Positions 7,079 through 39,271 of a stretch of DNA of 64,000 bases are shown here, one piece after another. The position numbers were made by a program, and so were the translations under genes. This stretch comes from Rhodospirillales bacterium. Lineage in GTDB: Bacteria; Pseudomonadota; Alphaproteobacteria; TMED109. Within the stretch, counting starts at the first letter, position 1, and each line of letters begins with the position of its first letter. Location of the stretch: the NCBI GenBank assembly GCA_009839325.1, contig VXPW01000064.1, positions 1-64,000 of the forward strand. The letters run 5' to 3'. A model generated the notes under the pieces. The model did not search any database and was not told the origin of the DNA. It was given only the letters and a program-made list of their open reading frames with translations.

Positions 7079-8683
7079 CTACATCCGGAAAACACCGAAC
7101 CGCTGATGCGGGTCGGGGTCGGACGCCACGACCCGCAGTGCCAGCCCCAGCGTCCGCCGGGTCTCGCGCGGATCGATGATGCCGTCGTCCCACAACCGGG
7201 CGGTCGCGTGGTACGGGTTCCCCTGCCGCTCGTACTGGTCGCGGATACCGTCCCGGAATGCTTCCTGTTCCACTTCGGGCCAGTCCTCGCCCCGGGTGGC
7301 CATCGCGTTGCGGCGCACCACCGACAGGACATGGGCGGCCTGCTCCCCGCCCATGACGGAAATGCGGGCGTTCGGCCAGGTCCAGAGAAACCGGGGGCTG
7401 TAGGCCCTTCCGCACATCCCGTAGTTCCCGGCCCCGAAAGAGCCGCCGATGATCACGGTGAGCCGCGGCACGCTGGACGTGGCGACCGCGGTAACCAGTT
7501 TGGCGCCGTCCTTGGCAATCCCGCGGGCCTCGTAGCTCGCCCCGACCATGAAGCCCGTGATGTTCTGCAGGAACAGCAAGGGGATCCCGCGGCGTTCGCA
7601 AAGCTGAATGAAGTGGGCGCCCTTTCGGGAGGATTCGGAAAACAACACGCCGTTGTTGCCGAGGATGCCGACCGGCCGCCTCCAGATCTGCGCGAAACCG
7701 CAGACCAGCGTGGACCCGTAAAGCGGCTTGAATTCGTCGAAGTGGCTGCCGTCGACGATCCGCGCGATGACCTCGCGGACATCCCATGGTTCGCGCGGGT
7801 CGATCGGGACGAGACCGTAGAGTTCCTCCGGGTCGTACTCGGGTTCATCCGGCGGAGCGTCGTCCACCGGAGGGCGGTCGTTGCCGAGATGGCCGATCGC
7901 CTGGCGCACCAGCGACAGGGCATGGGCGTCATCACTCGCCACGTGGTCGACCAGACCAGACCGCCGGCCGTGCACGTCGGCACCGCCCAGTTCCTCCGCG
8001 GTCACGACCTCCCCGGTAGCCGCCTCCACCAGCGGCGGTCCACCCAGGAAAATGGTCCCCTGCCCGGACACGATGATCGATTCGTCGGACATGGCGGGGA
8101 CATAGGCGCCGCCAGCCGTGCACGAACCCATCACGACCGAAATCTGCGGGATACCCCGCGACGACATTCGGGCCTGGTTGTAGAAGCTTCGCCCGAAGTG
8201 ATCACGGTCCGGAAACACTTCGTCCTGCAGCGGCAGGTAGGCGCCGCCGGAATCCACCAGGTAAATGCATGGCAGTGCATTCTCGGCGGCGATGTCCTGG
8301 GCGCGGAGGTGTTTCTTGACCGTGATGGGGTAGTACGTTCCGCCTTTCACGGTTGCATCGTTCACGATCAGCATGCACGCCCGTCCGGCGACCGGACCGA
8401 TGCCCGTGATGAGCCCAGCGGCCGGCGCCTCCCCGTCGTACAGATCGCAGGCTGCCAACGGCGAGAGCTCCAGAAACGGCGCCCCCGGGTCCAGCAGGCG
8501 ATCGATCCGCTCTCGCGGCAGCAGCTTCCCGCGGGCAATGTGCCGCTCGCGGGCCCGGGCGCCGCCGCCCTCACGAACCGTCTCGATCCGGGCGTGGAGT
8601 TCCTCCACCAGTGCCCGCATGCGCGTCCAGTTGGTCCGGTAGGAGACCCCCTGGACGTCGAGCCGGCTTGCCAATGCGGGCAT
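7079..8683 (-). CDS. liuB: Methylcrotonyl-CoA carboxylase, carboxyltransferase beta subunit
   Basis: Carboxyltransferase subunit (MccB/LiuB) that transfers CO2 from carboxybiotin to 3-methylcrotonyl-CoA. 534 residues, as expected. Acyl-CoA carboxylase beta motifs are clear: the CoA site around [17 protein letters not shown] (about 185), the oxyanion region [15 protein letters not shown], and the second-domain block around [11 protein letters not shown] (about 375) and [16 protein letters not shown] (about 415). The latter block distinguishes MCC from propionyl-CoA carboxylase beta. Followed 3 bases later by liuC. Confidence 0.92.
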
Positions 8684-8702
8684 GACGGGTGGCTTCCTGC
8701 GC

Positions 8703-9890
8703 CTAGTGGATGAGCTCCAGCGCCACCGCCGTCGCCTCGCCGCCGCCGATACACAGCGAAGCGACGCCCTTGTCCAACCCGTACTTGCGCAAAGCTGCGA
8801 TCAGGGTCGCCATGATGCGGGCGCCGGACGCCCCCACTGGGTGACCGAGCGCACACGCTCCACCGTGCACGTTCACCTTGTCGGGCGACAGTCCGAACTC
8901 GCGCATTGCCACCATGGTGACGACCGCGAAGGCCTCGTTGACCTCGTACAGGTCGACGTCGTCGGCGTCCCAGCCGGCCTTGTCGAGAACCTTGCGGATG
9001 GCGGGCGGCGGCGCCGTTGTGAACCAGGCAGGTTCCTGGCTGTGCGTCGCCTGTGCGACGATCCGGGCGAGCGGAGTCAGCCCGCGGCGCTCCGCCTCGG
9101 ACTCGCGCATCAGCACCAGGGCCGCAGCACCGTCCGAGATCGAGCTCGAGTTGGCGGCGGTCACCGTCCCGTCCTTGCTGAAGGCCGGCCGCAAGGACGG
9201 GATCTTCTCAATGTTGGCCGAAAACGGCTGCTCGTCCCGCTCAACCACGGTCTCGCCCTTGCGGGTCTTGACCGTCACCGGAACCATCTCGTCCGCGAAC
9301 GTCCCGTCCTCGTTCGCCGTGCGCGCCCGCGTCAGCGAACGAATCGCGAACTCGTCCTGTTCGGCACGCGTGAACTGGTATTTCTGGGCAGTCGCCTCGG
9401 CGAAATGACCCATGAGCTTCCCGGGTTCGTAAGCGTCTTCGAGCCCGTCGACGAACATGTGGTCCTGCAGTTCCGCGTGGCCCATGCGGAGCCCGGCCCG
9501 GACCTTGGGGACCACGTAGGGCGCGTTCGACATGCTCTCGAGGCCGCCCGCGACCACCACCTCCGCGTTACCGGCGGCCAGCGTGTCGTGGCCGAACATC
9601 GCCGCCCGCATGCCCGATCCGCACATCTTGTTGATGGTCGTAGCGCCAGCGTCGACCGGAATCCCGGCCCCAATCGCCGCCTGGCGCGCCGGCGCCTGGC
9701 CTTGGCCCGCCGGAAGGACGCACCCCATGAAGACCTCGCTCACGTCCTCGCTCGGCACGGCCGCTCGCTCCAGGGCGCCCTTGATCGCGGCGCTTCCGAG
9801 TTCCGGGGCCGAGGCGCCGTGCAGCGATCCCTGGAAGCTCCCCATGGGGGTCCGCGCCATCCCGGCGACGACAATCGGGTCTTCAATCAT
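8703..9890 (-). CDS. atoB: Acetyl-CoA acetyltransferase (thiolase)
   Basis: Biosynthetic/degradative thiolase, 395 residues. The acyl-enzyme Cys is in [12 protein letters not shown] (about residue 89), the catalytic His in [18 protein letters not shown] (about 350), and the second Cys in [15 protein letters not shown] at the C-terminus. It cleaves acetoacetyl-CoA, the end product of leucine breakdown, to two acetyl-CoA. It lies inside the liu operon, 19 bases before liuB. HMG-CoA lyase, which would supply acetoacetate, is not in the window, nor is a CoA transferase to activate it. Confidence 0.88.
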
Positions 9891-9956: not shown

Positions 9957-10508
9957 TCAGAATTCGGACAGACCGGGTGCGAGGACACAGTCCCGGGCAC
10001 AAAGGACGAAGTCGCCCTCGCATTGCCGGGCGGGTTTGCCCGCCTGTGCACAATCTGAACGCGTGGCGACGCAGTCCCGCACACACTGGCGTGCCGCACC
10101 CCCACGGGCTTCGGGATCATAGGGGAATGGAGGCACCCCGACCTCCCGTTCCGTCGGCGCCCGCGCACCCCTCGCGTCCCGGGCGGCGGCTGGCCCTGGC
10201 TGCTCCGCTCCGGTCAACTCGGACGGCGGGCGGGCAGGCATCTGCGAACGTCCCGGTGATCGGTCGACACCCGGTATCGGGAACGGGCCGACCCCCGCAG
10301 GATCGCCGGACGGACCGGTACCAGCCCCGTCTCCGGGCAGCGGGGCGATCGGGAACGGCGACACCCCTTCGGGATCTTCTGCAAGTCGAATGCCGCCGGA
10401 TGGCGCACTTACCGCGAACTCCCCGGGCATGAGCGCTGCGGCGGGCAGACCTGTGCAAACCGCGCCCGCCAGCAGCAGCGCCGCCGTTCCCGGAATACCG
10501 CCCGCCAT
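9957..10508 (-). CDS. Unknown secreted protein with PFP repeats and a symmetric Cys motif
   Basis: I do not recognise this family. 183 residues, with a signal-peptide-like start (hydrophobic TAALLLAGAVC, cleavage plausible after PAAALM). The middle is Pro/Gly-rich and low in structure, with three degenerate repeats: GVSPFPIAPLP, GVGPFPIPGVD and GVPPFPYDPEA. The C-terminal 40 residues hold six cysteines in a mirror-symmetric pattern, C-x3-C-x6-C-x9-C-x6-C-x3-C, suggesting two antiparallel helices locked by disulfides, or a metal site. Its ATG overlaps the ivd stop by one base (TGATG), so it is translationally coupled to isovaleryl-CoA dehydrogenase. The thiolase gene follows 66 bases later. 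Any role in leucine use is inference from position. Confidence 0.75.
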   Translation of the reverse strand: MAGGIPGTAALLLAGAVCTGLPAAALMPGEFAVSAPSGGIRLAEDPEGVSPFPIAPLPGDGAGTGPSGDPAGVGPFPIPGVDRSPGRSQMPARPPSELTGAEQPGPAAARDARGARAPTEREVGVPPFPYDPEARGGAARQCVRDCVATRSDCAQAGKPARQCEGDFVLCARDCVLAPGLSEF

Positions 10509-11689
10509 CAGGCAGATTCCTCGAAGATCTCGCGCCCGATCAGCATGCGCCGGATCTCGCTGGTGCCGGCACCGATTTCATAGAGCTTCGCGTCGCGCAT
10601 GAGGCGACCCGCCGGGTATTCGTTGGTGTAGCCGTTCCCGCCCAGCACCTGCACGGTCTGCGAGGCCATCCAGGTAGCCCGCTCGGCCGTGTACAGGATG
10701 ACCCCGGCTGCATCCTTGCGAGTCGCCTCGCCCCGGTCACAGGCCTGCGCCACGGCGTAGCCGTAGCTGCGGCATGCGTTCATTGTGGTGTACATGTCCG
10801 CGAGCTTGCCCTGCATCAGCTGGAACGAGCCGATCGGTTGTCCGAACTGCTTGCGGTCGTGCACGTAGGGAACCACGAGGTCCCAGCACGCTTGCATCAC
10901 GCCCAGCGGGCCGCCCGACAGCACGATTCGTTCGTAGTCGAGCCCGCTCATCAGGACCGCGACTCCCTCGTCGACGGTTCCGAGGACATTCTCGACCGGG
11001 ACCTCACAGTCCTCGAAGACCAATTCCCCGGTGTTCGAACCGCGCATGCCCAGTTTGTCGAGCTTCGAAGCCCGGCTGAAACCCTTGAATCCGCGCTCCA
11101 CGATGAACGCAGTGATCCCCCGGGCGCCGGGCCCCGGACGGGTTCGCGCGTACGCCACGACGATGTCGGCGTCCGGGCCATTCGTGATCCATGACTTCGC
11201 CCCGTTCAGGACGTACCGATCCCCGTTCCGCTCGGCCCGCGTCTGCATCCCCACAACGTCGGAGCCTGCTCCCGCCTCGCTCATGGCGAGCGCCCCGACG
11301 CTGGTGCCCGCAACCAGCCCCGGCAAATGCCGCTCCCGCTGCTCCGGAGATCCGTTGAGACGGATCTGATTCACGCAGAGGTTGGAATGGGCGCCGTAGC
11401 TGAGACCCACGGATGCGGAAGCCCGGCTGATCTCCTCCATGGCCACAACATGCTCGAGGTAGCCGAGTTCCGAGCCCCCGTACTCCTCTTCCACGGTGAC
11501 GCCGAGCAGCCCCATCGCACCCATCTTCTCCCATAGGTCGTCGGGGAAGTCATTGGATGCGTCGATCTCGCCAGCCCGGGGGGCAATCTCCCGGGCCGCA
11601 AACCCGCTCACGCTGGTCCGCAGCATGTCCGCGGTTTCCCCGAGATTGAAGTTGAAGCTGGCTGGCGCGTTCGAGAGCATCTGAACCAT
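10508..11689 (-). CDS. ivd: Isovaleryl-CoA dehydrogenase
   Basis: FAD acyl-CoA dehydrogenase, 393 residues, catalysing isovaleryl-CoA to 3-methylcrotonyl-CoA, the step before the carboxylase encoded downstream. Acyl-CoA dehydrogenase signatures are present: [18 protein letters not shown] (about 140) and [22 protein letters not shown] (about 350). The catalytic Glu is in [15 protein letters not shown] (about 255), the helix-G position that marks isovaleryl-CoA dehydrogenases and separates them from most short-chain dehydrogenases. It starts 11 bases after the mgtE stop and its own stop overlaps the start of the secreted-protein gene. Confidence 0.92.
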
Positions 11690-11700
11690 TTACCGAGTCC

Positions 11701-13068
11701 TCACAGCAGGGTTAGCTGCGCCAACCCCAGGAAGGCAAAGAATCCCACGACATCCGTGACCGTGGTCAGGATGACGGCTGCCCCATGGGCCGGATCGATC
11801 CGCGCGCGCTCCAGCATCATTGGCACGAGCGCTCCGAACAGACCGGCCACCACCATATTGAAGACCATGGCGGCCCCGATCACGAGACCGATGGGCACGC
11901 TCGAGAACCAAAGTCCGGCCCCGAGGCCGGTCAGCACGGCGAATGCCACGCCATTGCATAGGCCTACCAGCACCTCTTTCCCCAACACCCGCGCCGCATT
12001 CGCCGGCGTGAGTTCGCGGGTGGCGATGGCGCGGACCGCCACAGTCAGTGTTTGCATGCCGGCATTGCCGCCCATGGACGCGACGATCGGCATGAGTACC
12101 GCCAGCGCCACCACCTGCTCGATGGTCGAGGCGAACACTGCAATCGCGGCTGATGCGAGAAACGCCGTAAACAGGTTGATAAGCAACCAGTTGAACCGGT
12201 TGCGCGCGGTTTGGACGGCGGCCGTGTAGATGTCATGCTCCGGTCCAACGCCGGCCAGACGCATCATGTCCTCGCTGGCCTCTTCCTGGATCACGTCAAC
12301 CACATCGTCGACGGTCACCATGCCGATCAGTCGATTCTGCGCGTCGACGACCGGCGCAGAAGTCAGTTCGTACTGATCGAACACGAACGCAACGTCCTCC
12401 CGGTCGGCGTTGACCTGCACCACCTTCGGGTCCCGCGTCATGATGTCGGCGACGCACACGTCGCGGTGAGCCCGCATGGCCCGATGCAGCGGGATCGTCC
12501 CAACCGGAGTGTGACGGGCACCGACAACAAACAGCGCGTAGAACTCGTCAGGGACATCAGGCGAGTCACGCAGGTGGTCGATGACCTGTCCGATCGTCCA
12601 GTACGACGGAATCGCGACGTAGTCGCGCTGCATGATGCGCCCGGCGCTATCCGCCTGGAATTCCAGCGCCTGCCTGGCGAGTTCTGCCTCGCTGGCCGGC
12701 ATCTCCTTGAGGAGCCGGGCGCGGCGCGCCTCATCCAGGCACTCGAGAACATACGCGGCATCATCGGTCTCGAGTTCCCCGGTCAACCTGGCCAGCAGAC
12801 CGGGGTCGATTGTCGAGGCGACCTTGTCAAGAACCCGGCGCGACAACGAGGCGAGGCTGTCTGCCGGTAGATCATCGCCCAGCAGGTGTACCGCGCGCAG
12901 CCGGGGCTCCGACGGGAGCTGCTCAATGATGTCGGCAAGGTCTGCCGGGTGGCTGCCTCGAAGTTGTGCGAGGTCCGATGCCAAAGGCTCGGTGCCCGCG
13001 TCGGCCAGCCGCGAGATCAGCTCAAGTCGCTGTTCCTGTGCGGTGTCGGTGGCTTGGGATTCGGGCAT
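11701..13068 (-). CDS. mgtE: Magnesium transporter MgtE
   Basis: Mg2+ channel/transporter, about 455 residues. It has an N-terminal superhelical domain (ALEFQ-type helices), then a CBS pair (VADIMTRDPKVVQVNADREDVA and VVDAQNRLIGMVTVDDVVDVI), then about five membrane segments near the C-terminus. The transmembrane part contains the conserved pore-region elements PIVASMGGNAGMQT and AVRAIATREL. The open frame extends upstream to 13248, but ATG 13068 is preceded by GGGAGG at good distance and begins MPESQATD, so I take it as the start. The extra 60 codons overlap the divergent lipB leader. Only 11 bases separate it from ivd, so it may head the liu transcript. Confidence 0.9.
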   Translation of the reverse strand: MPESQATDTAQEQRLELISRLADAGTEPLASDLAQLRGSHPADLADIIEQLPSEPRLRAVHLLGDDLPADSLASLSRRVLDKVASTIDPGLLARLTGELETDDAAYVLECLDEARRARLLKEMPASEAELARQALEFQADSAGRIMQRDYVAIPSYWTIGQVIDHLRDSPDVPDEFYALFVVGARHTPVGTIPLHRAMRAHRDVCVADIMTRDPKVVQVNADREDVAFVFDQYELTSAPVVDAQNRLIGMVTVDDVVDVIQEEASEDMMRLAGVGPEHDIYTAAVQTARNRFNWLLINLFTAFLASAAIAVFASTIEQVVALAVLMPIVASMGGNAGMQTLTVAVRAIATRELTPANAARVLGKEVLVGLCNGVAFAVLTGLGAGLWFSSVPIGLVIGAAMVFNMVVAGLFGALVPMMLERARIDPAHGAAVILTTVTDVVGFFAFLGLAQLTLL

Positions 13069-13269
13069 CGATCCCTCCCACCATGGCATTCGCGCCGCGA
13101 CGTCTGGGTCTGAAATAGCTGCCTGTAATCTATCGTGGCTCGCCGCGCGTTCCAAGGTTTTGCGGTGCCCCCGACCCCAAGCGGGAGCCGCGCCGACGCT
13201 CGCAGGTCGCCATATCTTTCGGGCGGGATTACGCTGTTCCTTGATCAACCATTATCTGAATCGGACGAG

Positions 13270-13944
13270 ATGCTTCACACCACTGACGGTATTACCTGGC
13301 GACACAGTACGACCGCGGTCGACTACCCCGATGCAGTTGCAAGCATGGAAGAACAGGTCGCCGGAATTCTGGCGGGAACCGCCGACGAATGTGTTTGGCT
13401 GGCGGAACATCCGCCCCTGTACACGGCCGGGACCAGTTCCGACCCACGCGAAGTCCTGCCAAAGGCAAGCCTGCCGGTATTTCCGACGGGGCGAGGTGGA
13501 CGCGTGACCTATCACGGCCCGGGACAGCGACTTGCGTACGTGATGCTGGACCTGCGGGCGCGAGGTCGCGATGTCCGGGCCTTCGTCAACGGCCTCGAGA
13601 CATGGATCATCGCCGTGCTGAACGACTTCGGCGTCCGGGGCGAGACCCACGCCGGCCGTATCGGCGTCTGGGTTGAAGACGCGAACGGCCAGCACGCGAA
13701 GATCGCCGCCGTTGGCGTGCGCGTACGACGTGGCGTGACCTTCCACGGGGTGTCGCTGAACGTGGACCCGGACCTCGCCCATTACGACGGGATCGTCCCC
13801 TGCGGAATTCGGGACGCCGGCGTGACGTCGTTGCGCCAGGTCGGCGTGGAGGCCTCCATGACCGACGTTGACCGAGCCCTTGTGCGTCGGTTTGGCGAGT
13901 GGGTACCGCCGCGGGAAGCGGCGCCTCGCACCAGTTTGCACTAG
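13270..13944 (+). CDS. lipB: Octanoyl-[acyl carrier protein] transferase LipB
   Basis: Transfers octanoyl from ACP to lipoyl domains, the first step of lipoate synthesis. About 224 residues from ATG 13270 (MLHTTDGITW); the frame is open further upstream but without family-like sequence. Diagnostic motifs are GGRVTYHGPGQ (about 76), GRIGVWV with the AKIAAVGVRVRRGVTFHG block that carries the catalytic Lys, and the acyl-accepting Cys in IVPCGIRDAGVTSL. Lipoate is needed by branched-chain ketoacid dehydrogenase, which would feed the adjacent liu pathway; that link is inference. Divergent from mgtE. Confidence 0.92.
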   Translation: MLHTTDGITWRHSTTAVDYPDAVASMEEQVAGILAGTADECVWLAEHPPLYTAGTSSDPREVLPKASLPVFPTGRGGRVTYHGPGQRLAYVMLDLRARGRDVRAFVNGLETWIIAVLNDFGVRGETHAGRIGVWVEDANGQHAKIAAVGVRVRRGVTFHGVSLNVDPDLAHYDGIVPCGIRDAGVTSLRQVGVEASMTDVDRALVRRFGEWVPPREAAPRTSLH

Positions 13945-14074
13945 GCCGCGCCGCGGCAGCGGGGCAGCGGAAACGGCCGAAGGGACGCCGCACCGCCGGC
14001 AACGGACCGCAGCGAATACTGGCCTACGCCCTTCACGGCACGTATGCCCGTCCGCGATGCCGGAGCCTTGACGT

Positions 14075-30387: not shown

Positions 30388-30554
30388 TGCGGGCACCCTG
30401 TCGCTGTATTGAGAAGCGATCGTACGGTGCCCCCCATGCCTGTCAACGAGCGCACACTCCGCCTGGCGGGCGCGGTGCTCCCCGGGCGCCCCGGCACCAA
30501 AGCTAGAACGAACGCGCGATGTGTGCCGAGGCCGCGCCCGCCAACGAAGTCTCC

Positions 30555-30595
30555 AAAAGTTGCTAACTTGGCACCATGCATTCATTGCAACTTTT
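30555..30595. promoter_or_regulatory. Paired inverted repeat in divergent spacer, candidate operator
   Basis: AAAAGTTGC (30555-30563) is matched by its exact reverse complement at 30587-30595. The left copy is also part of a tight palindrome, AAGTT-GCT-AACTT (30557-30569). The right half-site is TTGCAACTTTT. The AT content contrasts with the GC-rich surroundings. It lies about 90-130 bases before the binding-protein gene and about 170-210 before the acyl-CoA dehydrogenase, so it could control either or both. No regulator gene is adjacent. Confidence 0.45.
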
Positions 30596-30682
30596 CCGCC
30601 GAGCTTCCGCGCACCGTCCCCGGCATCCGGCGACCGAGCGCTAAGCGGTGCAAAGCCGACACCTCTGGGAGAATTCTTCACG

Positions 30683-31906
30683 TTGCTGACACGACGTACG
30701 TTTATCGAAGGAGCGATGGCCGCCTCCGCGGTCCCCTTGGTTGGCCTCCGTTCCGCAAGGGCCAGCGAGCCGATTGCGGTTGGGGCCATCTATGACCTGT
30801 CGGGACCGCTTCAGGGTTTCGGCGACAACCAGTGGCGTTGCGCGAAGCTGGCAATCGACCAGATCAACGAAGCAGGCGGCCTTCTCGGCAGCCAGCTCGA
30901 GGTCAAGCTCTACGACGCCCAGTCCGAGATGCAGTTCTACAACCAGTTCGCCAACCAGCTGGCCCTGCGGGACCGGGTGGCTGTGGTGCAGGGCGGACTG
31001 ACGAGTTCGTCGCGCGAGGTCATCAGGCCCATTCTCCATCGCCTTCACACTCTCTACGTCTACAACACGAACTACGAGGGCGGGGTCTGCGACCGCAACT
31101 TTTTCGCGACGGGCGCAACCCCGGGCATCTACGTCGATCTATTGCTGCAGGCGGCGGCGGATCGCTGGGGCAAGCGGGTCTACGTCCTGGCGGCGGACTA
31201 CAACTACGGCCAGATCTCGGCGCAGTGGATTCGGAAGGCCGCGCAAGGCCTGGGTGGTGAAGTCGTCGGAGAAGAGTTCTTTCCGCTGGACGTGAATCAG
31301 TTCGGCGCGACCATCAGCCGCATTCAGGCCGTGGAACCGGATGTCGTGCTCAATGTCTTCGTCGGCCCGGCGCACGAGGCATTCTACGGACAGTGGGCGT
31401 CAGCCGGCATGAACCAGCGCATTCCAATGATGTCCACCACGTTTGGCGGCACCAGCGAAATCGTCCGCATGCCTCCGGAGGTCGTCAACGGCATCATGGT
31501 GATCGGGTCGTATTACGAGAGCCTGGACAACGCGTTCAACCAGGCGTGGCTGCCCGACTTCCGTCGTCGCTACGGTACCGATTACGGCTATCTGACCGAC
31601 GTGCCGATCAAGGACTGGTACGGCTGGACGCTGTGGGCGGAAGCCGTCCGGCAGGCCGGAACGGTTGAACGGGAGGCCGTGATCGAGGCCCTGGAGACGG
31701 GGATCGGCGTGGACGGCCCCGGCGGCCCGGTCAGCATCGACCCCACCACGCATCATTGCTTCATGGACACCCACCTGGCGGAAGCCCGCGACGGCGAGTT
31801 CAGAATCCTGCAGCGGTATCAGGGCGTGGCCCCCACCAACCCGGCGGCGCAGTGCGACCTCCAGGCACGGCCCGACACCAACACCATGTTCACTCCGGAC
31901 ATCTGA
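30683..31906 (+). CDS. ABC transporter binding protein (amide/urea/branched-chain type), Tat-like signal
   Basis: Periplasmic type I binding protein (Peripla_BP_6), 407 residues. The TTG 30683 start gives [21 protein letters not shown], a twin-arginine-style signal with cleavage near ARASEP; GGGAGA lies upstream. Core features are [17 protein letters not shown], the substrate-site region [17 protein letters not shown] and [18 protein letters not shown]. The YNYG element and the C-terminal [16 protein letters not shown] block resemble short-chain amide and urea binders (FmdD, UrtA) more than LivJ/K leucine binders. First of five importer genes with 1-23 base spacing or overlaps. Substrate is therefore an inference. 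Confidence 0.82.
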
Positions 31907-31929
31907 CACCCGCCGGGGCGTCGGCAGAC

Positions 31930-32796
31930 ATGGATCACGCCCTCGTCGTCGGCCTTCACCTCCTGCACGCAATGGCCAGTCTGGCACTGGTCTGCATCGG
32001 ACTGGCCGTCATCTTCGGAATGCTCCGGGTGATCAACTTCGCCCACGGAGAGTTCCTGATGGTCGGGGGCTACGCCTTCGTGCTGGCCGCCGGTGCCGGC
32101 CTGAATCTCTGGGTCGCCATGCTGGTCGTCGCACCTGCGGTGGTCGGCGCGCTCGGCTTCCTCGTCGAACGCTTCATCATCCGTCACCTCCGCGGAGACA
32201 TCATCGCCACGATTCTCGCCACCTGGGGCCTCAGTCTCTTCCTGATCGGCTTGGCGGCCACGGTACTCGGGTACCACCAACAAGGCGTGGCACCACCTTT
32301 CGGAACCATCCAAATCGGATCGTACTCCATTGGAAACTATACGTTTTTCGTAATCGCTGTGGCGGTCCTGACGATTGTGGCCCTATTTGCGTGGCTGCGC
32401 TGGAGCCGGGCGGGCCTTCTGGTGCGAGGCGCCATGCAAAACCCGGAACTCGCGGCCGCGCTCGGCGCGGACACCCGACGCCTTCGTAGCTCCACCTTCG
32501 TCCTCGGCTCAGCACTGAGCGGCCTGGCCGGCGCGGTGCTGGCCCCGCTTGCCGGCGTGCTGCCGGAAATCGGGGCGACGTACGTCGTCAAGGCGTTCAT
32601 CACCGTGATCAGCGGCGGGGCAACGGCGCTCACCGGCACGACCCTGGCGGCGGCATTGTTCGGCTTCACAAGCCAGGCAGCCGCCTTCCTCAGCCGCCCC
32701 GTGGTCGGTGAGGTGGCCTTGCTGATCGTCGCCATCGTGCTGCTGCGCCTCCTGCCCACCGGCATTACCGGGCGATACTTCCGCAAGGCCCTGTGA
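31930..32796 (+). CDS. ABC importer permease (LivH/UrtB-type)
   Basis: First membrane subunit of the branched-chain/amide-type importer, 288 residues and about eight hydrophobic helices. LivH-family marks are FGMLRVINFAHGEFLMVGGY (about 30) and the cytoplasmic coupling helix RAGLLVRGAMQNPELAAALG (about 160), followed by SALSGLAGAVLAPLAGV. ATG 31930 (MDHALVVGLHLL) begins 23 bases after the binding protein; the frame is open into the upstream gene but without membrane sequence. Its stop overlaps the next start (GTGA). Confidence 0.88.
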   Translation: MDHALVVGLHLLHAMASLALVCIGLAVIFGMLRVINFAHGEFLMVGGYAFVLAAGAGLNLWVAMLVVAPAVVGALGFLVERFIIRHLRGDIIATILATWGLSLFLIGLAATVLGYHQQGVAPPFGTIQIGSYSIGNYTFFVIAVAVLTIVALFAWLRWSRAGLLVRGAMQNPELAAALGADTRRLRSSTFVLGSALSGLAGAVLAPLAGVLPEIGATYVVKAFITVISGGATALTGTTLAAALFGFTSQAAAFLSRPVVGEVALLIVAIVLLRLLPTGITGRYFRKAL

Positions 32797-33797
32797 ACTG
32801 GATCCGCGAACGGGCGAACCTCCTGGCTGCCGTCGCGGTGGGCAGTGCACTTATCGTCGTTATCCCGGCCGTCGCCGAAATCTATGTCCTGTTTCAACTT
32901 ACGCTGTTCCTAGTGTTCGCGATCCTCGCGCTCAGTCTCGCCTGGGTATGGGGGTTTGGCGGCATCCTGTGCTTCGGCCAATCCGTGTTCTTTGGACTGG
33001 GCGGCTACACCTACGCCATCGCCGTCATCAACTTGGGCGAGAGCACCGTGCCCCTCGTGTTGGGCATTCTCCTGCCCGCCGGACTGGCCGGAATTCTTGG
33101 TTATTTCCTGTTCTGGCAGCGAATCAGCGATGTCTATCTTGCCGTCATCACGCTTGCGGTGTCGCTGATCTTCTACTACCTGACCGGGGCTTCGGCGGGT
33201 AGCGACTACCGGATCGGCACGGCGCTGCTCGGCGGGTACAACGGCATCCCTTCGGTACCCCCGATCAACGTTCCCGGATTCCCGGAACGGGTGGTGGTGT
33301 ACGGCGACCTTTACGTGCTCACCGCGATCATGCTTGCCGCGGTCTACGGTGGCCTGCGCGGGCTGCTGGCAACCGATTTCGGCCGGGTTGTCGTCGCCAT
33401 ACGGGAAAACGAGGAAAGGGCCCAGCTGCTCGGCTACGACGTCCGCATCACAAAGCTTGCGGTCTTCGCGATCGGCGGCGCCGTCGCGGGGCTCTCCGGC
33501 GTCCTGTTCGCCGCATGGGGGTCATACGTGAGCCCGAACGTGTTCTCCATGACGTTCACGGCGCAGATCATCGTCTGGGTGCTGGTCGGAGGCCTCGGTA
33601 CCCTGAGCGGCGCCGTGATCGGCTGCGTCCTGGTCCAGGCGGCCATGACCTGGCTCGGCGAGACCAAGGTTGCCGACACGAACCTGGTGCTCGGCGCGGC
33701 ATTCGTGGTGCTCGTCCTGTTTGCCCGACGCGGATTGATCCCTGGCACCAGGAGTCTGCTGGCTGGATTGCGAAGCCGCGTCAGGAGCGCACTGTGA
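32793..33797 (+). CDS. ABC importer permease (LivM/UrtC-type)
   Basis: Second membrane subunit, 334 residues, with about nine to ten helices. LivM-like elements are ALSLAWVWGFGGILCFGQSVFFGLGGYTYA (core: GFGGILCFGQSVFFGLGGY) and the coupling helix GRVVVAIRENEERAQLLGYD (about 195). The conserved IVWVLVGGLGTLSGAVIG lies near residue 255. GTG 32793 overlaps the stop of the first permease by 4 bases. Its own stop overlaps the ATPase gene likewise. Confidence 0.88.
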   Translation: MNWIRERANLLAAVAVGSALIVVIPAVAEIYVLFQLTLFLVFAILALSLAWVWGFGGILCFGQSVFFGLGGYTYAIAVINLGESTVPLVLGILLPAGLAGILGYFLFWQRISDVYLAVITLAVSLIFYYLTGASAGSDYRIGTALLGGYNGIPSVPPINVPGFPERVVVYGDLYVLTAIMLAAVYGGLRGLLATDFGRVVVAIRENEERAQLLGYDVRITKLAVFAIGGAVAGLSGVLFAAWGSYVSPNVFSMTFTAQIIVWVLVGGLGTLSGAVIGCVLVQAAMTWLGETKVADTNLVLGAAFVVLVLFARRGLIPGTRSLLAGLRSRVRSAL

Positions 33798-34528
33798 CGC
33801 AGGCTCCGCTCCTCGAAACGATTGCGCTGACCAAGCGCTTTGGCGGTGTGACCGCGATCGATCGGGTGGACTTCCGGGTCGACGCGGGCGAGCTGCGCTG
33901 CCTGATCGGACCCAATGGAGCCGGCAAGAGCACGTTCTTCCGCTGCCTCACCGGACAGTTCCGGCCCACGGGCGGGCAGGTGCGTTTGAGCGGCAGGGAC
34001 ATCACCGGTGCCGCCACGCACGCGATCGCGCGGAAGGGAGTGTCCATCAAGACCCAGATCCCCGCGCTGTTTGACGGGCTGAGCGTGGCCGAGAACGTGC
34101 GACTGGCTACCCGGAAGGCCGGAAATCGGATGGCCCGAACCCGCAAGACCGAAGAAATCCTCACGATCACCGGCCTTTCCTCCCATGCATCCCAGATGGC
34201 AGGAACGCTCCCGCACGGCCAACGGCAGTGGCTTGAGCTCGGCCTCGTCATGGCAGGGAGCCCCGCGCTGATGCTGCTGGACGAACCCACGGCCGGGATG
34301 ACGCGTCAGGAAGTCGCCCGAACGGCAGAACTCGTCCGATCCCTGGCAGAAGACCACACCATCATCGCCGTCGAACACGATCTGCAGTTTGTTCAGATGG
34401 TCGCGGACGCCGTAACGGTCTTCCACCAGGGGCAAATCCTTGCGGAAGGTCCGGCCGATGCCGTCCTGGCGGACCGGCGGGTACGGGAGGTCTATCTCGG
34501 CCAGCCTCCAGCTTCCGACCGGTGCTGA
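33794..34528 (+). CDS. ABC importer ATP-binding protein (LivG/UrtD-type)
   Basis: Cytoplasmic ATPase, 244 residues from GTG 33794. Walker A is GPNGAGKSTFF (about 40), the signature is degenerate, LPHGQRQWLELGLVMAGSP in place of LSGGQ, and Walker B is LMLLDEPTAGMT with the switch VEHDLQFVQM. LPHGQRQWLE-type signatures are the rule in urea/amide LivG relatives (UrtD) and support that substrate class. The QIPALFDGLSVAENV segment after Walker A is likewise family-typical. Overlaps both neighbours. Confidence 0.88.
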   Translation: MTQAPLLETIALTKRFGGVTAIDRVDFRVDAGELRCLIGPNGAGKSTFFRCLTGQFRPTGGQVRLSGRDITGAATHAIARKGVSIKTQIPALFDGLSVAENVRLATRKAGNRMARTRKTEEILTITGLSSHASQMAGTLPHGQRQWLELGLVMAGSPALMLLDEPTAGMTRQEVARTAELVRSLAEDHTIIAVEHDLQFVQMVADAVTVFHQGQILAEGPADAVLADRRVREVYLGQPPASDRC

Positions 34529-35226
34529 AGGTCACCGGCCTCTGCGCGGGCTACGGCCCCGTCCCGGTGCTGGACGGAGTCAGCATCGATGTCGGCACCG
34601 GGACCGCCATGGCCGTGCTGGGCGCCAACGGCATGGGCAAGACCACGTTGATGCGCGCCCTGATGGGGTTTCTTGCCGTAACCTCCGGGAAAATCGTGCT
34701 CGACGGGCTCGACGTGACGGACCAGCCGCCGCAGGAGCGCGCGCGCGCGGGGTTCGGCTACATGCCGCAGGGACAGGGCGTCTTCCTGCGCATGACCGTC
34801 CGGGACCAGCTGCGGTACGCGATGGTCGCGAAAGGTCGTGCCGCCGGAAACCTGTCGGACATCCTGGACCGGTTTCCAGTCCTGCCGCCACTGCTCGACC
34901 GGACCGGAGATGCGTTGAGCGGTGGCGAGCGGCAATTGGTTGCGTTGGCCTGCTGCCTCAGCACGCGGCCCGGGACGCTGCTCCTTGACGAGCCCACCGA
35001 GGGGTTGCAGCCATCGTATGTCGACCAGATTCTCGAACTGCTGACCATGCTGAAGCGGCACGACAGTCTGACCATCCTGCTGGCCGAGCAAAATCTGGAA
35101 TTCGCAACCGCCCTGTGCGATCAGGTATCCATCATGCGGAAGGGTGCTATCGCGGCGACGGCTCCGGTCGCTGCCATCCGGGACGCTTCGACGGACGTCG
35201 ATCTGTTGCTTGCCGGGGAACTCTGA
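34522..35226 (+). CDS. ABC importer ATP-binding protein (LivF/UrtE-type)
   Basis: Second ATPase of the importer, 234 residues. Walker A is GANGMGKTTLMRAL (about 35), the Q-loop region GFGYMPQGQGVFLRMTV, the signature LSGGERQLVALACCL and Walker B LLLDEPTEGLQPSY. The PQGQGVF and DEPTEGLQPSxV style is seen in UrtE/FmdF-like proteins. GTG 34522 overlaps the previous stop by 7 bases. It ends the five-gene operon; no terminator hairpin is obvious in the 271 bases before the next gene. Confidence 0.87.
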   Translation: MLKVTGLCAGYGPVPVLDGVSIDVGTGTAMAVLGANGMGKTTLMRALMGFLAVTSGKIVLDGLDVTDQPPQERARAGFGYMPQGQGVFLRMTVRDQLRYAMVAKGRAAGNLSDILDRFPVLPPLLDRTGDALSGGERQLVALACCLSTRPGTLLLDEPTEGLQPSYVDQILELLTMLKRHDSLTILLAEQNLEFATALCDQVSIMRKGAIAATAPVAAIRDASTDVDLLLAGEL

Positions 35227-35497: not shown

Positions 35498-36526
35498 CTA
35501 CTCGACGCCCTCCAGCAGGTACTCGACGAGCGCGGGCACGATGATGTCCGGCCGCTCCAGGTGCGGCACATGACCCAGCCCGGGAAACAGCAGCAGGCGA
35601 CCGTTTTCGTTCGGCACGGTGTCGGCCAACACCTGCATTCGCTCCTGAAAGACCTCCGCCGTGCCGAGCAGCAGATCCTCCGCACCCCCGAATGCGAGCG
35701 TCGGCACCTGGATATGCGGCCAGTCGTAGACGACCGGGTCTTGGTAGAGCATCTGGAAGATGATCGCCTGCACCATGGCGAGGCGCGGAAAGTCGGAACT
35801 GAGAGTCCACGACGAGCGGATGCGCGTGTAGAGCTCGAACTTGTCGTTCCAGGCCGACGGGTCGTGCCGGACGTACCGGCTGAGGCTCCGACGGGTGCTC
35901 TGGTAGTCGGTCTGAAGGACCCGCGCGTAGATTTGGTCCACCGGCGTCATCGGGCGATCGAACCGGTTGTCGGAGAGGCCGATGGGGTTGTAGATGACCA
36001 GCCGCTCGACTGAGTCGGGATACTGCGTGGTAAACCGCGTCGCGAGCATGCCGCCCATCGAGTGGCCAACCGCCATGACCTTGTCGATCCCCTCGTGCTC
36101 GAGGATGAGCTGCGTGTTTCGCGCCTGCGTATTGAAGTTGTACGGCGCGATCGGCTTTGACGATCTGCCGTACCCGATCTGGTCCGGAGCGATGACGCGA
36201 AATCCGGCGTCGGTCAGCCCGTCGATGATGTCACCGAAGTAGAAACCGCCGAAGTTGTTGCCGTGCATCAGCAGGACCACGTGGCCGTTGGCCGGGACAG
36301 CCGGCGCGATGTCCATATAGGAGATGCGCACGTCCTGGCTGTACACGTCGATGTCGAGATACTTGCTCGGGGCCGGATACGGGCACTCGTCGCAGGTGAT
36401 GCTGCCCGGCTTGAGGTCAGTCGGTGTGGATACCGGCGGCAGAATGTCGCGAGCTTGGGCGCCCGTGGTGGCAGCCACACCGACAATCAAGAGTACCGAG
36501 GCGAGTGTTCTGACATATCCGTGCAC
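35498..36526 (-). CDS. Exported alpha/beta hydrolase
   Basis: Alpha/beta-hydrolase, 342 residues from GTG 36526, which has GGAG 8 bases upstream and yields a signal peptide (VRTLASVLLIVGVAATTGAQA). Longer in-frame starts lack this. The oxyanion loop is LMHGNNFGGFYFG, the nucleophile elbow AVGHSMGGMLATRF (Ser, about residue 168), the acid near AFGGAEDLLLG, and the His in PGLGHVPHLERPD. A Cys pair (ITCDECPYP) follows the signal and may form a disulfide. Haloperoxidase/epoxide-hydrolase-like members share the fold; no substrate can be assigned. It stands before the molybdenum-subunit gene in reverse order, 158 bases apart. Confidence 0.78.
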   Translation of the reverse strand: MHGYVRTLASVLLIVGVAATTGAQARDILPPVSTPTDLKPGSITCDECPYPAPSKYLDIDVYSQDVRISYMDIAPAVPANGHVVLLMHGNNFGGFYFGDIIDGLTDAGFRVIAPDQIGYGRSSKPIAPYNFNTQARNTQLILEHEGIDKVMAVGHSMGGMLATRFTTQYPDSVERLVIYNPIGLSDNRFDRPMTPVDQIYARVLQTDYQSTRRSLSRYVRHDPSAWNDKFELYTRIRSSWTLSSDFPRLAMVQAIIFQMLYQDPVVYDWPHIQVPTLAFGGAEDLLLGTAEVFQERMQVLADTVPNENGRLLLFPGLGHVPHLERPDIIVPALVEYLLEGVE

Positions 36527-36684
36527 GAGTCTTACTCCGTGGTCCAGTGTTATCGGCAAATGGCCCATCCAGGGGCACGGGGACGGAAGTCCGCGGCAAG
36601 CAGATCCCTCGATCACCCAAGACAATTTGTTCCGTGCGGTGTGCCATGAAGGCGGTGAGGTTCCTCGGCAGCGAAACGCGACGA

Positions 36685-38943
36685 CTAGCGACAGCCGGAT
36701 CCGGCGGCTTTTGCTCGCCGCATCGCTTCCCAGACCTTCGCGCCCGTCGCTGGCATCGGCAAGTCGTCGATGCCGAAGGGGGTCAAGGCGTCGATGACGG
36801 CATTCATGATGGTCGCCGGGGCCGCGATCGCTCCGGCCTGCCCTGCGCCTTTGACCCCTAGGGGATTGCGCCCGGTGGGAGTCTCCCGAAAACCGATCGC
36901 GAACTCCGGCAGGTCAGCTGCGCGCGGCAACCGGTAGTCCATGAGGCTACCGCTCAGGATCTGGCCCGTGTCCGGGTCGTAGACGATGGCCTCCTGCAGG
37001 GCCTGACCCGCACCTTGTGCAAGCCCGCCCACCACTTGTCCAAGGGTCAACTGCGTGTCCAAACGCCGACCGTAATCGTCGACCCCTGCGTAGCGAAGAA
37101 GCGTCACATCGCCGGTCTCGCAATCGATCTCCACTTCGGCCACATGACATCCGGACGGAAAGGTGATGTCAGCGTCCTCGACCAGTTCGAAGGCATCGAT
37201 CTCCGCATCGCCGGCAATCGTCGCGATGTCAATCCTCCGCTCCGTTCCGCGTACCACGAATCCGCCCTCCGCGTACCCGAGTTCTTCGATGTCCGCCTGC
37301 AGGAGGCGGGCCGCCTCGACCTGGGCCCGCCCGATCATCGCGTCGATGGCGCGACAGAGCGCAGTACCTCCCATGTGCAAGGTCCGGGCGCCACCGTGTC
37401 CCTCGCCCATCCGCGTGACCCGTGTATCCGCCTCCCGAAAGCGGATGTTCTCCAGCGGCACACCGATGCGCTCGGCTGCCAGCCTGGAGAGAACGGTTTC
37501 ATGCCCCTGGCCGGTCGAATCCGTGCCCATGCGAATCTCGATCACGCCGTTCGGCTTGACGCATACTTCCGCGCCTTCTCGGTCCGATCCCCGCGAGGTC
37601 TCCAGAAAACAGGCGATGCCGAGCCCCCGGAGCTTGCCGGCCTGTTTCGAGCGATCCCGGCGACGGGCGAATCCTTCCCGGTCGGCCAAGCGGACAGCCT
37701 CGTCGAGGTTTGCCGCGAAGTCACCGGTGTCGACAGTCTCGCCGAGGGCCTTCCGGTAGGGATAGTCCCGAATGACGTTCCGTCGACGCAGGTCAACCGG
37801 GTCGGCGCCAAGCTCACGGGCGGCCTTGTCGACGAGCCGCTCGACAAGGTAATTCGCCTCCGGCTTGCCGGCTCCACGGTAGGCGTCGATCGGGGCGCAA
37901 TTGGTGAATGCACCGCGCGTTTCCAGGTAGATGGCGGGAATCGCATAGACGCCGCCCAAAACGGTCGCTGGTGCGAGCGTCGAGCTGTGGGGCCCGGAAG
38001 TGGAGAGACCAGCGCCAAGATTGGCCACGGCACGCACGTCCAGGGCGCAGAAGTTACCGCCGCCATCCAGCGCCAGCCGTGCGTTGGCCCGGAAATCCCG
38101 TCCGTGTGCCCCGGCGGCGGTCTCTTCTGATCGTTGCGCCGACCAGTGAATCACCCGCCGCAGGCGACGGGCCGCCCAGACGAGCAGGACCCACTCCGGG
38201 TACAGGTAATTCTTGCTGCCGAACCCTCCGCCGACATCGGGTGCAGCTAGGTGAAAATTGTCGACCGGCTCGTCGAACACGTCGGCAAGCTGGCTTCGAA
38301 TGGGGTGGAGCCCCTGGGCGGTCACGGTCAGTAGCGACCGGCCCGTCTCGGCATCGTATTCCGCGACTCCCGCGCGGGTCTCCAGCGGCGAAGCCATCAC
38401 CCGCTGATTCATCAGATCGAGTGTCGTGACGTGGGCAGCCTGAGCGATCGCGGCCTCCACTGCCGCACGATCGCCTCTCTCAAACCGAAACGCGAGATTC
38501 CCGGGTACCCGGTCCCACAGCTGGGGAGCTCCCGGCGCAAGCGCCTCGGCCCCGTCCGTGACAATCGGGAGCGGCTCGTAGTCGATCTCGACCGCCTCGG
38601 CTGCGTCGAACGCTTCCCAATACGACTCCGCCACGACAAACGCCACAGGTTCACCGACGTAGCGCACCCGTTTGCGGGCCAGCGCCGGGCGTTCCGGAAC
38701 CAGCAGCGGCTCCACGGCGTCAAGCGGCGTGATACAGGGAATCGGCCGCAGATCGAGATCGCTCTCCACCAGCACGGCCAGCACCCCGGGCTTGGACCGG
38801 GCAGCCTGCGTGTCGATCGAGCGGATCTCGGCATGAGCATGGGGCGAACGCAGCACCACGGCTTCGGCTGCCGACGACCGGGGCAGGTCATCGACGAAAC
38901 AACCCTGACCCGTCAGGAACCGAAAATCTTCCAGCCGTCCCAT
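36685..38943 (-). CDS. Xanthine-dehydrogenase-family molybdopterin subunit, stand-alone, Glu-to-Gln at active site
   Basis: Large molybdenum subunit of the xanthine dehydrogenase / aldehyde oxidase / CO dehydrogenase family, 752 residues. N-terminal MGRLEDFRFLTGQGCFVDD; cofactor regions PDVGGGFGSKNYLYPE and AYRGAGKPEANYLVERL; GTDSTGQGHETVLSRLAAE; and the C-terminal block GVKGAGQAGAIAAPATIMNAV. The form-I CO dehydrogenase loop AYRCSFR is absent, so it is not a CoxL proper. In this family the C-terminal block normally reads G-x-G-E-x-G, with Glu as catalytic base; here the codon is CAG, Gln. No FAD or iron-sulfur subunit lies beside it. ATG 38943 has AGGAGG 10 bases before it; ATG 38973 is an alternative. 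Confidence 0.82.
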   Translation of the reverse strand: MGRLEDFRFLTGQGCFVDDLPRSSAAEAVVLRSPHAHAEIRSIDTQAARSKPGVLAVLVESDLDLRPIPCITPLDAVEPLLVPERPALARKRVRYVGEPVAFVVAESYWEAFDAAEAVEIDYEPLPIVTDGAEALAPGAPQLWDRVPGNLAFRFERGDRAAVEAAIAQAAHVTTLDLMNQRVMASPLETRAGVAEYDAETGRSLLTVTAQGLHPIRSQLADVFDEPVDNFHLAAPDVGGGFGSKNYLYPEWVLLVWAARRLRRVIHWSAQRSEETAAGAHGRDFRANARLALDGGGNFCALDVRAVANLGAGLSTSGPHSSTLAPATVLGGVYAIPAIYLETRGAFTNCAPIDAYRGAGKPEANYLVERLVDKAARELGADPVDLRRRNVIRDYPYRKALGETVDTGDFAANLDEAVRLADREGFARRRDRSKQAGKLRGLGIACFLETSRGSDREGAEVCVKPNGVIEIRMGTDSTGQGHETVLSRLAAERIGVPLENIRFREADTRVTRMGEGHGGARTLHMGGTALCRAIDAMIGRAQVEAARLLQADIEELGYAEGGFVVRGTERRIDIATIAGDAEIDAFELVEDADITFPSGCHVAEVEIDCETGDVTLLRYAGVDDYGRRLDTQLTLGQVVGGLAQGAGQALQEAIVYDPDTGQILSGSLMDYRLPRAADLPEFAIGFRETPTGRNPLGVKGAGQAGAIAAPATIMNAVIDALTPFGIDDLPMPATGAKVWEAMRRAKAAGSGCR

Positions 38944-39271
38944 GCCCGTTCTGCCTCCTGGCGCGAGCGCCATCGTCGGTCCATTGGCGGAGACCCGCAA
39001 ATGGGCCCGTCGCCCATCATCTAGCACACACGCTATGGGTCGGCGCGCAATCGCGGGTTACCGACTGGTTGGCGCTCTTCCATGGACCTGCCGCCCGGCT
39101 GCCGCGAAACGATCCGCCGTGTGCTAGCCACACTGCCCGAACCCTCGCTGCCGGCCGGCCGATCACGGCCAGAAATGCAGCACCGGCGCTTCCGCTGGGC
39201 GCCGGCGCCGACCTTCGCGCCTTTCCCACCATTTTGCCGGCAAGCTACTATGCTCCGCCGTCGAGAAACCC

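Follow-up and report, generated by a model that had tools for sequence, protein, structure and literature searches.

The large subunit of a putative molybdenum hydroxylase encoded in an alphaproteobacterial genome carries glutamine in place of the catalytic glutamate of the xanthine oxidase family, and this residue is fixed throughout a well-supported natural clade of orthologues. The gene lies in the window, i.e. the 64,000-nucleotide stretch of Rhodospirillales contig VXPW01000064.1 (contig C56 of the assembly) analysed here. We give a probability of about one half to the reading that it encodes a functional molybdenum-cofactor subunit, sharing a [2Fe-2S]/FAD subunit pair encoded on contig C8 and acting on a substrate for which no glutamate base is required. 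The fold, the family and the shared-subunit layout are already known; in the accessible part of the open-access literature we found no natural glutamine clade or variant, nor a characterised active glutamine subgroup.

Glutamine at the catalytic position

The window belongs to a draft genome of 2.73 Mb in 111 contigs, 92.4% complete. The gene and its two active-site elements are located as follows:

36685–38943, minus strand: gene of the glutamine-bearing large (Mo-cofactor) subunit, xanthine oxidase family, assigned by domain profiles and alignment to solved chains
36832–36858, minus strand: GVKGAGQAG motif with a CAG codon giving Gln730 instead of Glu (pattern match at 36833–36858, the last motif base falling outside the match)
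37861–37884, minus strand: AYRGAGKP active-site loop, residues 382–389 of the 780-residue frame (coordinates by arithmetic)

A GTG-initiated open reading frame reaches 39027 (36685–39027, minus strand, 780 amino acids), and residues are numbered accordingly. As AGGAGG is placed ten bases upstream of the ATG at 38943, the start chosen in the first-pass annotation is likely; judged from sequence, the protein probably comprises the 752 residues that begin there. In the window, promoter and terminator scans gave no more signals than shuffled sequences, and no tRNA genes were found.

The protein possesses all three Pfam domains of a family large subunit: Ald_Xan_dh_C (82 bits, cut-off 31.3), MoCoBD_1 (206 bits, cut-off 27) and MoCoBD_2 (211 bits, cut-off 27). 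It stays outside narrower classes: the best NCBIfam profile, NF041018 (glyceraldDH_alpha, glyceraldehyde dehydrogenase alpha), reaches 497 bits against a cut-off of 790, and CO_dehy_Mo_lg 428 against 991. With phmmer, 41 solved chains matched, CoxL (8uem) being at the top (E = 4.5e-127) and followed by QorL, CutL and 4zoh; the alignments of these four (8uem, 1t3q, 1ffu and 4zoh) were inspected.

The GVKGAGQAG motif spans residues 724–732, and Gln730 stands opposite a glutamate in all four inspected chains, so that the GxKGxGE position of Glu-base molybdenum hydroxylases is occupied by glutamine. By residue mapping, Gln730 falls onto Glu672 of Sulfolobus tokodaii GAOR2 (4zoh), which is named as the conserved catalytic glutamate (PMC4726530). 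The motif aligns without gaps in the four chains; a catalytic glutamate at another position is thereby rejected.

That the gene is a pseudogene, or the glutamine an error of sequencing or assembly, has a negligible probability and is rejected as well. Although the draft assembly consists of 111 contigs, all seven copies in the genus (G000–G006) carry the glutamine, and six of them, the window's and five at 76–89% identity, keep an open frame. The frame of the G004 copy is broken by an assembly N run, beyond which the glutamine is found, and the more distant orthologues described below agree.

A glutamine clade in five families

Glutamine is present in all 49 core-clade orthologues read (7 from family f1, 34 from f67, 3 from f68, 2 from f80 and 3 from f171), which come from five alphaproteobacterial families, and its occurrence is therefore more than chance. 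Within f67, 75 genomes were searched and 59 contain a 53–59% match; 34 of these were read, all of them with glutamine. Five named records matching at 75–89% identity are labelled as Alphaproteobacteria MAGs. In an alignment of 70 relatives, the catalytic column holds 46 glutamines and 24 glutamates, with no third residue. The core clade is recovered with an SH-aLRT value of 100 when the glutamine column is dropped (45 rows), and again when it is masked in a thinned set (23 rows). The first-pass annotation, which had read a glutamine for the catalytic glutamate and called for an alignment and a tree to find a glutamine clade, is thus borne out on both points, by the solved-chain alignments and by the orthologues.

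At the DNA level, the pattern GVKGxGQAG occurs in 14 of 385 genomes of the class (families f1, f67, f68, f80 and f109), versus 2 of 385 for a backward control pattern. In a sample of the phylum it occurs in 6 of 398 genomes, all from the window's class: G000, G093, three f171 genomes (52–54% identity) and G537. We discarded the G537 match as chance, since it lies in a stretch without any match to the glutamine protein. A search of plasmids returned 149 records matched by overall identity, all below 60%, which carry no information on the clade.

Pocket changes and the cofactor site

Fourteen columns, that of the glutamine among them, set the 45-row core clade apart: their states reach at least 95% within it, and the glutamate rows rarely show them or have others. 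Single diagnostic states are shared by few glutamate rows, Lys388 and His544 by 1 of 24 each. Four columns were placed relative to the substrate pocket of GAOR2, whose residue list is taken from PMC4726530: Asn273 corresponds to Ile219 and Lys388 to Arg336, while His544 and Ala547 flank Gly483. In most aligned glutamate relatives the active-site loop that contains Lys388 reads AYRGAGR. His544 is found in some glutamate relatives as well (L044, L238 and L249). The glutamate sister L044 already carries both Asn273 and His544, and these two states are therefore probably older than the glutamine.

The cofactor-site residues of a family large subunit are preserved. Gln238, Phe269, Gly270, Arg384, Gly385, Gly387, Glu476 and the stretch Gly506-Gln507-Gly508-His509 are invariant in all 46 glutamine rows, and Gly268 is kept in 45 of them, with serine in one. 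We take Gln238 to be the glutamine of the apical oxo ligand, and GGFG, YRG and GQGH to be cofactor-site motifs.

One large subunit outside the core clade, from genome G311 of family f109 (L180:7206–9473), displays GVKGAGQAG together with an AYRGAGR loop, is encoded by a lone gene and has 38% identity. It matches the core clade at just two of the 14 diagnostic columns, the glutamine and Ala547, and mostly shows glutamate-type states otherwise. Its glutamine may represent a second, independent origin; a single origin including G311 is not rejected (AU p = 0.571). In the same genome, a second small and medium subunit pair lies some 9 kb away from a complete set.

Candidate partner subunits

Profile searches of the window's genome detected five Fer2_2 and two FAD_binding_5 matches, all of them on other contigs; no [2Fe-2S] or FAD subunit gene was found on C56, in agreement with the earlier remark that none adjoins the gene. 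Of these, four Fer2_2 and one FAD_binding_5 gene adjoin large subunits on C52, C70, C81 and C99:147k. The genome search for orphan small (S) and medium (M) subunits that the first-pass annotation had suggested yields a single pair, beside maturation genes:

C8 (L017), 7506–7988: orphan [2Fe-2S] (S) subunit, the only unpaired S found in the genome
C8 (L017), 8003–8791: orphan FAD (M) subunit, the only unpaired M found in the genome

The pair is followed by genes for a MoxR-type ATPase, CoxE, XdhC and a MoeA/MobA-like fusion (L017:7506–13556), and the 20 kb that were read contain no match to the large subunit. Conversely, only two large subunits in this genome have no S or M neighbour, the glutamine protein and a paralogue at C99:113k with the motif GMKGAGEAG. 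By elimination, the C8 pair probably serves both the glutamine subunit and the lone glutamate paralogue, as far as can be deduced from the gene content of a draft that could miss a pair. The arrangement of a large subunit gene on C56 and an adjacent M/S pair without a large subunit on C8 reproduces the GAOR2/GAOR3-type gene layout, in an assembly of the completeness given above.

A C8-like pair exists in six of the seven genomes of the genus (85–98% identity), and no large subunit matched beside these pairs in 17-kb stretches. It was not detected in G006, though this genome has the glutamine gene. The glutamate paralogue is lone and carries its glutamate in all seven. Neither S nor M genes were detected beside the glutamine gene in the genus stretches or in 21 of 22 stretches outside the genus (14 from f67, 5 from f80/f68 and 3 from f171). 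The remaining stretch, L196 of G654, contains a separate S-M-L set (10189–13966) convergent to the glutamine gene; by eye, the small subunit of this set has a twin-arginine-like leader at its N-terminus.

Three f67 genomes assembled as single contigs (G093, G108 and G145) have 8 of 16, 8 of 16 and 9 of 18 lone large subunits, respectively, with no S or M gene within 6 kb. Every S and M gene found there has a large subunit within 6 kb and no orphan pair was seen, so the lone subunits would need to share the pairs of complete operons. Besides the glutamine proteins these genomes hold 22 other lone large subunits, of which 20 were read (those of G093 and G108, and all but two of those in G145); each of the 20 has glutamate. 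Together with the glutamate of the C99 paralogue in seven of seven genomes, this makes us reject the tie between a lone gene and glutamine that the initial description implied.

Some of these lone proteins are divergent in other ways. L238 and L249 (G093 and G108) are glutamate large subunits with the loop VTRGPGF rather than AYRGAGR, and with Asn and His at positions 273 and 544. L242, L245 and L253 (G093, G108 and G145) combine AIRGAGK with a motif ending in GVGELP(A/T)NG, and constitute another divergent lone type.

Gene neighbourhood

Two neighbouring elements of the window are listed here:

35498–36625, minus strand: alpha/beta hydrolase gene, directly downstream of the glutamine gene with a 59-bp gap
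30521–35226, plus strand: ABC transporter of the branched-chain-amino-acid type, convergent to the glutamine gene, with a binding protein, two permeases and two ATPases

Three of the five genus regions examined (L053, L054 and the window) contain the hydrolase, which is a possible operon partner, albeit not a fixed one; four of the five contain the transporter's binding protein. Divergent neighbours in the window are DsbA-like and SMP-30 genes.

Outside the genus, homologues of amidase, M20, M81 (MlrC), HyuA or HyuB lie near 15 of 22 glutamine genes, compared with 3 of 31 controls, which were taken in 19 of these 22 genomes; the query families were picked post hoc from the glutamine loci, which are non-independent, come mostly from one family and share synteny. 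Such homologues were found in none of the five genus regions and none of eight lone-glutamate regions. In different lineages, an M20 hydrolase (L178:7013–8272), an MlrC-type M81 peptidase (L177:5892–7388) and HyuA/HyuB (L110:3107–6885) adjoin glutamine genes. As a lead rather than a result, these neighbours may point to amide or cyclic-amide substrates for the glutamine lineage.

Selection

Within the genus, dN/dS ranges from 0.07 to 0.19 for the glutamine gene (15 pairs) and from 0.04 to 0.08 for the lone glutamate paralogue (21 pairs). The glutamine gene has the higher value in 14 of 15 like-for-like species pairs, by a factor of 1.6 to 3.9, and the same value as its paralogue in the fifteenth. 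The glutamine gene is therefore under purifying selection, mostly weaker than that acting on its paralogue.

Proposed function and alternatives

In this family the glutamate takes the Mo-OH proton (PMC3624778), and it is described as strictly conserved and essential (PMC8305194, PMC2671166). Mouse AOX1 E1265Q is reported to keep 60% of its Moco with no detectable activity in assays (PMC2671166), and alanine at the same position is reported to inactivate Kdh (KdhL E748A; PMC8305194) and Desulfovibrio gigas AOR (PMC3624778). Hence the glutamine enzyme must either be dead or use chemistry that can dispense with a carboxylate at this position. According to a calculation for Kdh, the Mo-OH proton goes to a ring nitrogen of the substrate and the glutamate takes a proton from the substrate (PMC8305194), which makes a substrate-assisted path conceivable for the glutamine enzyme.

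We now propose that the large subunit would bind the Mo cofactor and assemble with the C8 [2Fe-2S]/FAD pair, common to the lone glutamate paralogue. The glutamate deprotonating Mo-OH would have been lost for good in this lineage, in exchange for glutamine and the pocket changes Asn273, Lys388 and His544/Ala547. The substrate would be one that can dispense with a glutamate base, perhaps an N-containing cyclic amide or similar. The Mo-OH proton could be taken by the substrate itself or by another residue such as His544; alternatively, the glutamine might merely orient the substrate through hydrogen bonds. Directly observed here are the glutamine clade with its preserved cofactor-site residues, purifying selection in the genus, the isolation of the gene and the existence of an orphan S+M pair. 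We favour an active, altered enzyme because the diagnostic changes are the same throughout and have persisted in all five families.

Several observations count against this proposal: the inactive AOX1, Kdh and AOR variants; the raised dN/dS, which would be expected of a partly relaxed protein; the incompleteness of the draft, from which another S/M pair could be absent, along with G006 and its undetected C8-like pair; the three single-contig f67 genomes, in which no orphan pair was seen; and the amide and cyclic-amide hydrolase neighbours, absent from all five regions examined in the window's own genus and drawn from post hoc queries on non-independent loci. Instead, the protein could be a paralogue that has lost catalysis and is retained for structural reasons: it would fold, might bind the cofactor and the S/M pair, and would regulate or compete with the glutamate paralogue. 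AOX1 E1265Q, inactive while retaining its Moco (PMC2671166), agrees with such a fate, as does the dN/dS difference in 14 of 15 pairs. Nevertheless, key cofactor-site residues are kept in all 46 glutamine rows (save for the one serine at Gly268), the diagnostic columns are uniform in their new states and hence non-random, and a regulator of one partner explains poorly a gene retained in five families with different neighbours; we regard a dead paralogue as rather unlikely. The first-pass annotation had left a choice between a divergent enzyme, an inactive paralogue and a subunit borrowing its partners from elsewhere. Partner borrowing is the best supported of these, and purifying selection with the pocket changes makes a divergent enzyme more probable than an inactive paralogue.

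An ordinary hydroxylase, with the glutamine putatively converted to glutamate after translation or with His544 doing the glutamate's job, is a distinctly unlikely reading. His544 is indeed found in all 45 core-clade rows, two residues from the position of the GAOR2 pocket Gly483, but its presence in glutamate enzymes rules against a simple Glu/His swap. We consider it very improbable that the protein works alone without S and M, in a non-redox reaction (e.g. as a hydratase or isomerase) and with or without the Mo cofactor. The missing S and M genes in 21 of 22 stretches outside the genus and in the genus stretches, as well as the missing orphan pair in three f67 genomes, would be expected of a stand-alone protein; however, lone glutamate large subunits are common there, lone large subunits are known to share M/S pairs (PMC4726530), and the claim that one family member is a Mo-dependent hydratase has since been called into question (PMC4052635).

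Going beyond the altered enzyme with shared subunits that we prefer, one may speculate that a natural lineage has abandoned the glutamate base for a different Mo-dependent reaction, with glutamine as hydrogen-bond donor and with shared electron-transfer subunits. Examples would perhaps be a reaction in which a cyclic amide or an anionic substrate provides the base itself, or one that involves no hydroxylation; this bolder proposal is decidedly doubtful. A fixed natural glutamine clade offers a direct test of whether the glutamate base is indispensable or needed for certain substrates only. Moreover, roughly one in two large subunits found in the three single-contig genomes is lone and presumably relies on shared electron-transfer subunits. 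If this is true, gene neighbourhood badly underestimates the molybdenum enzymes that a genome can assemble.

Comparison with known systems

The archaeal glyceraldehyde oxidoreductases GAOR2 and GAOR3 of S. tokodaii were purified with different large subunits and one common M/S pair encoded far away (PMC4726530). The glutamine protein is of the same family, its lone gene is likewise far from an adjacent M/S pair, and its alignment with GAOR2 (4zoh) spans the whole Mo-binding part. It differs by glutamine for Glu672, asparagine for Ile219 and lysine for Arg336, and at most other listed pocket residues.

The large subunits of form I and form II CO dehydrogenases have the same domains, CoxL (8uem) being the best solved match. 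The AYRGAG loop resembles what we take to be the form II (CoxL-like) loop. In the CO dehydrogenase of O. carboxidovorans the loop is AYRCSF (PMC8305194). Unlike CO dehydrogenase, the glutamine protein has no AYRCSF, substitutes lysine for the loop's second arginine and glutamine for the glutamate, lacks adjacent M and S genes and scores far below the CO_dehy_Mo_lg cut-off. Form I CO dehydrogenase is rejected on the loop, which reads AYRGAGK and not AYRCSF.

QorL (of quinoline 2-oxidoreductase) and KdhL (of 6-hydroxypseudooxynicotine dehydrogenase), both from N-heterocycle hydroxylases, belong to the same family by sequence; in contrast to the glutamine protein, QorL has glutamate at this position and KdhL has E748. 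Their genes presumably adjoin their own S and M genes.

Finally, mouse AOX1 E1265Q presents the same glutamate-to-glutamine change at the same residue, laboratory-made and inactive (PMC2671166), whereas in the glutamine lineage the change is natural, fixed and accompanied by others.
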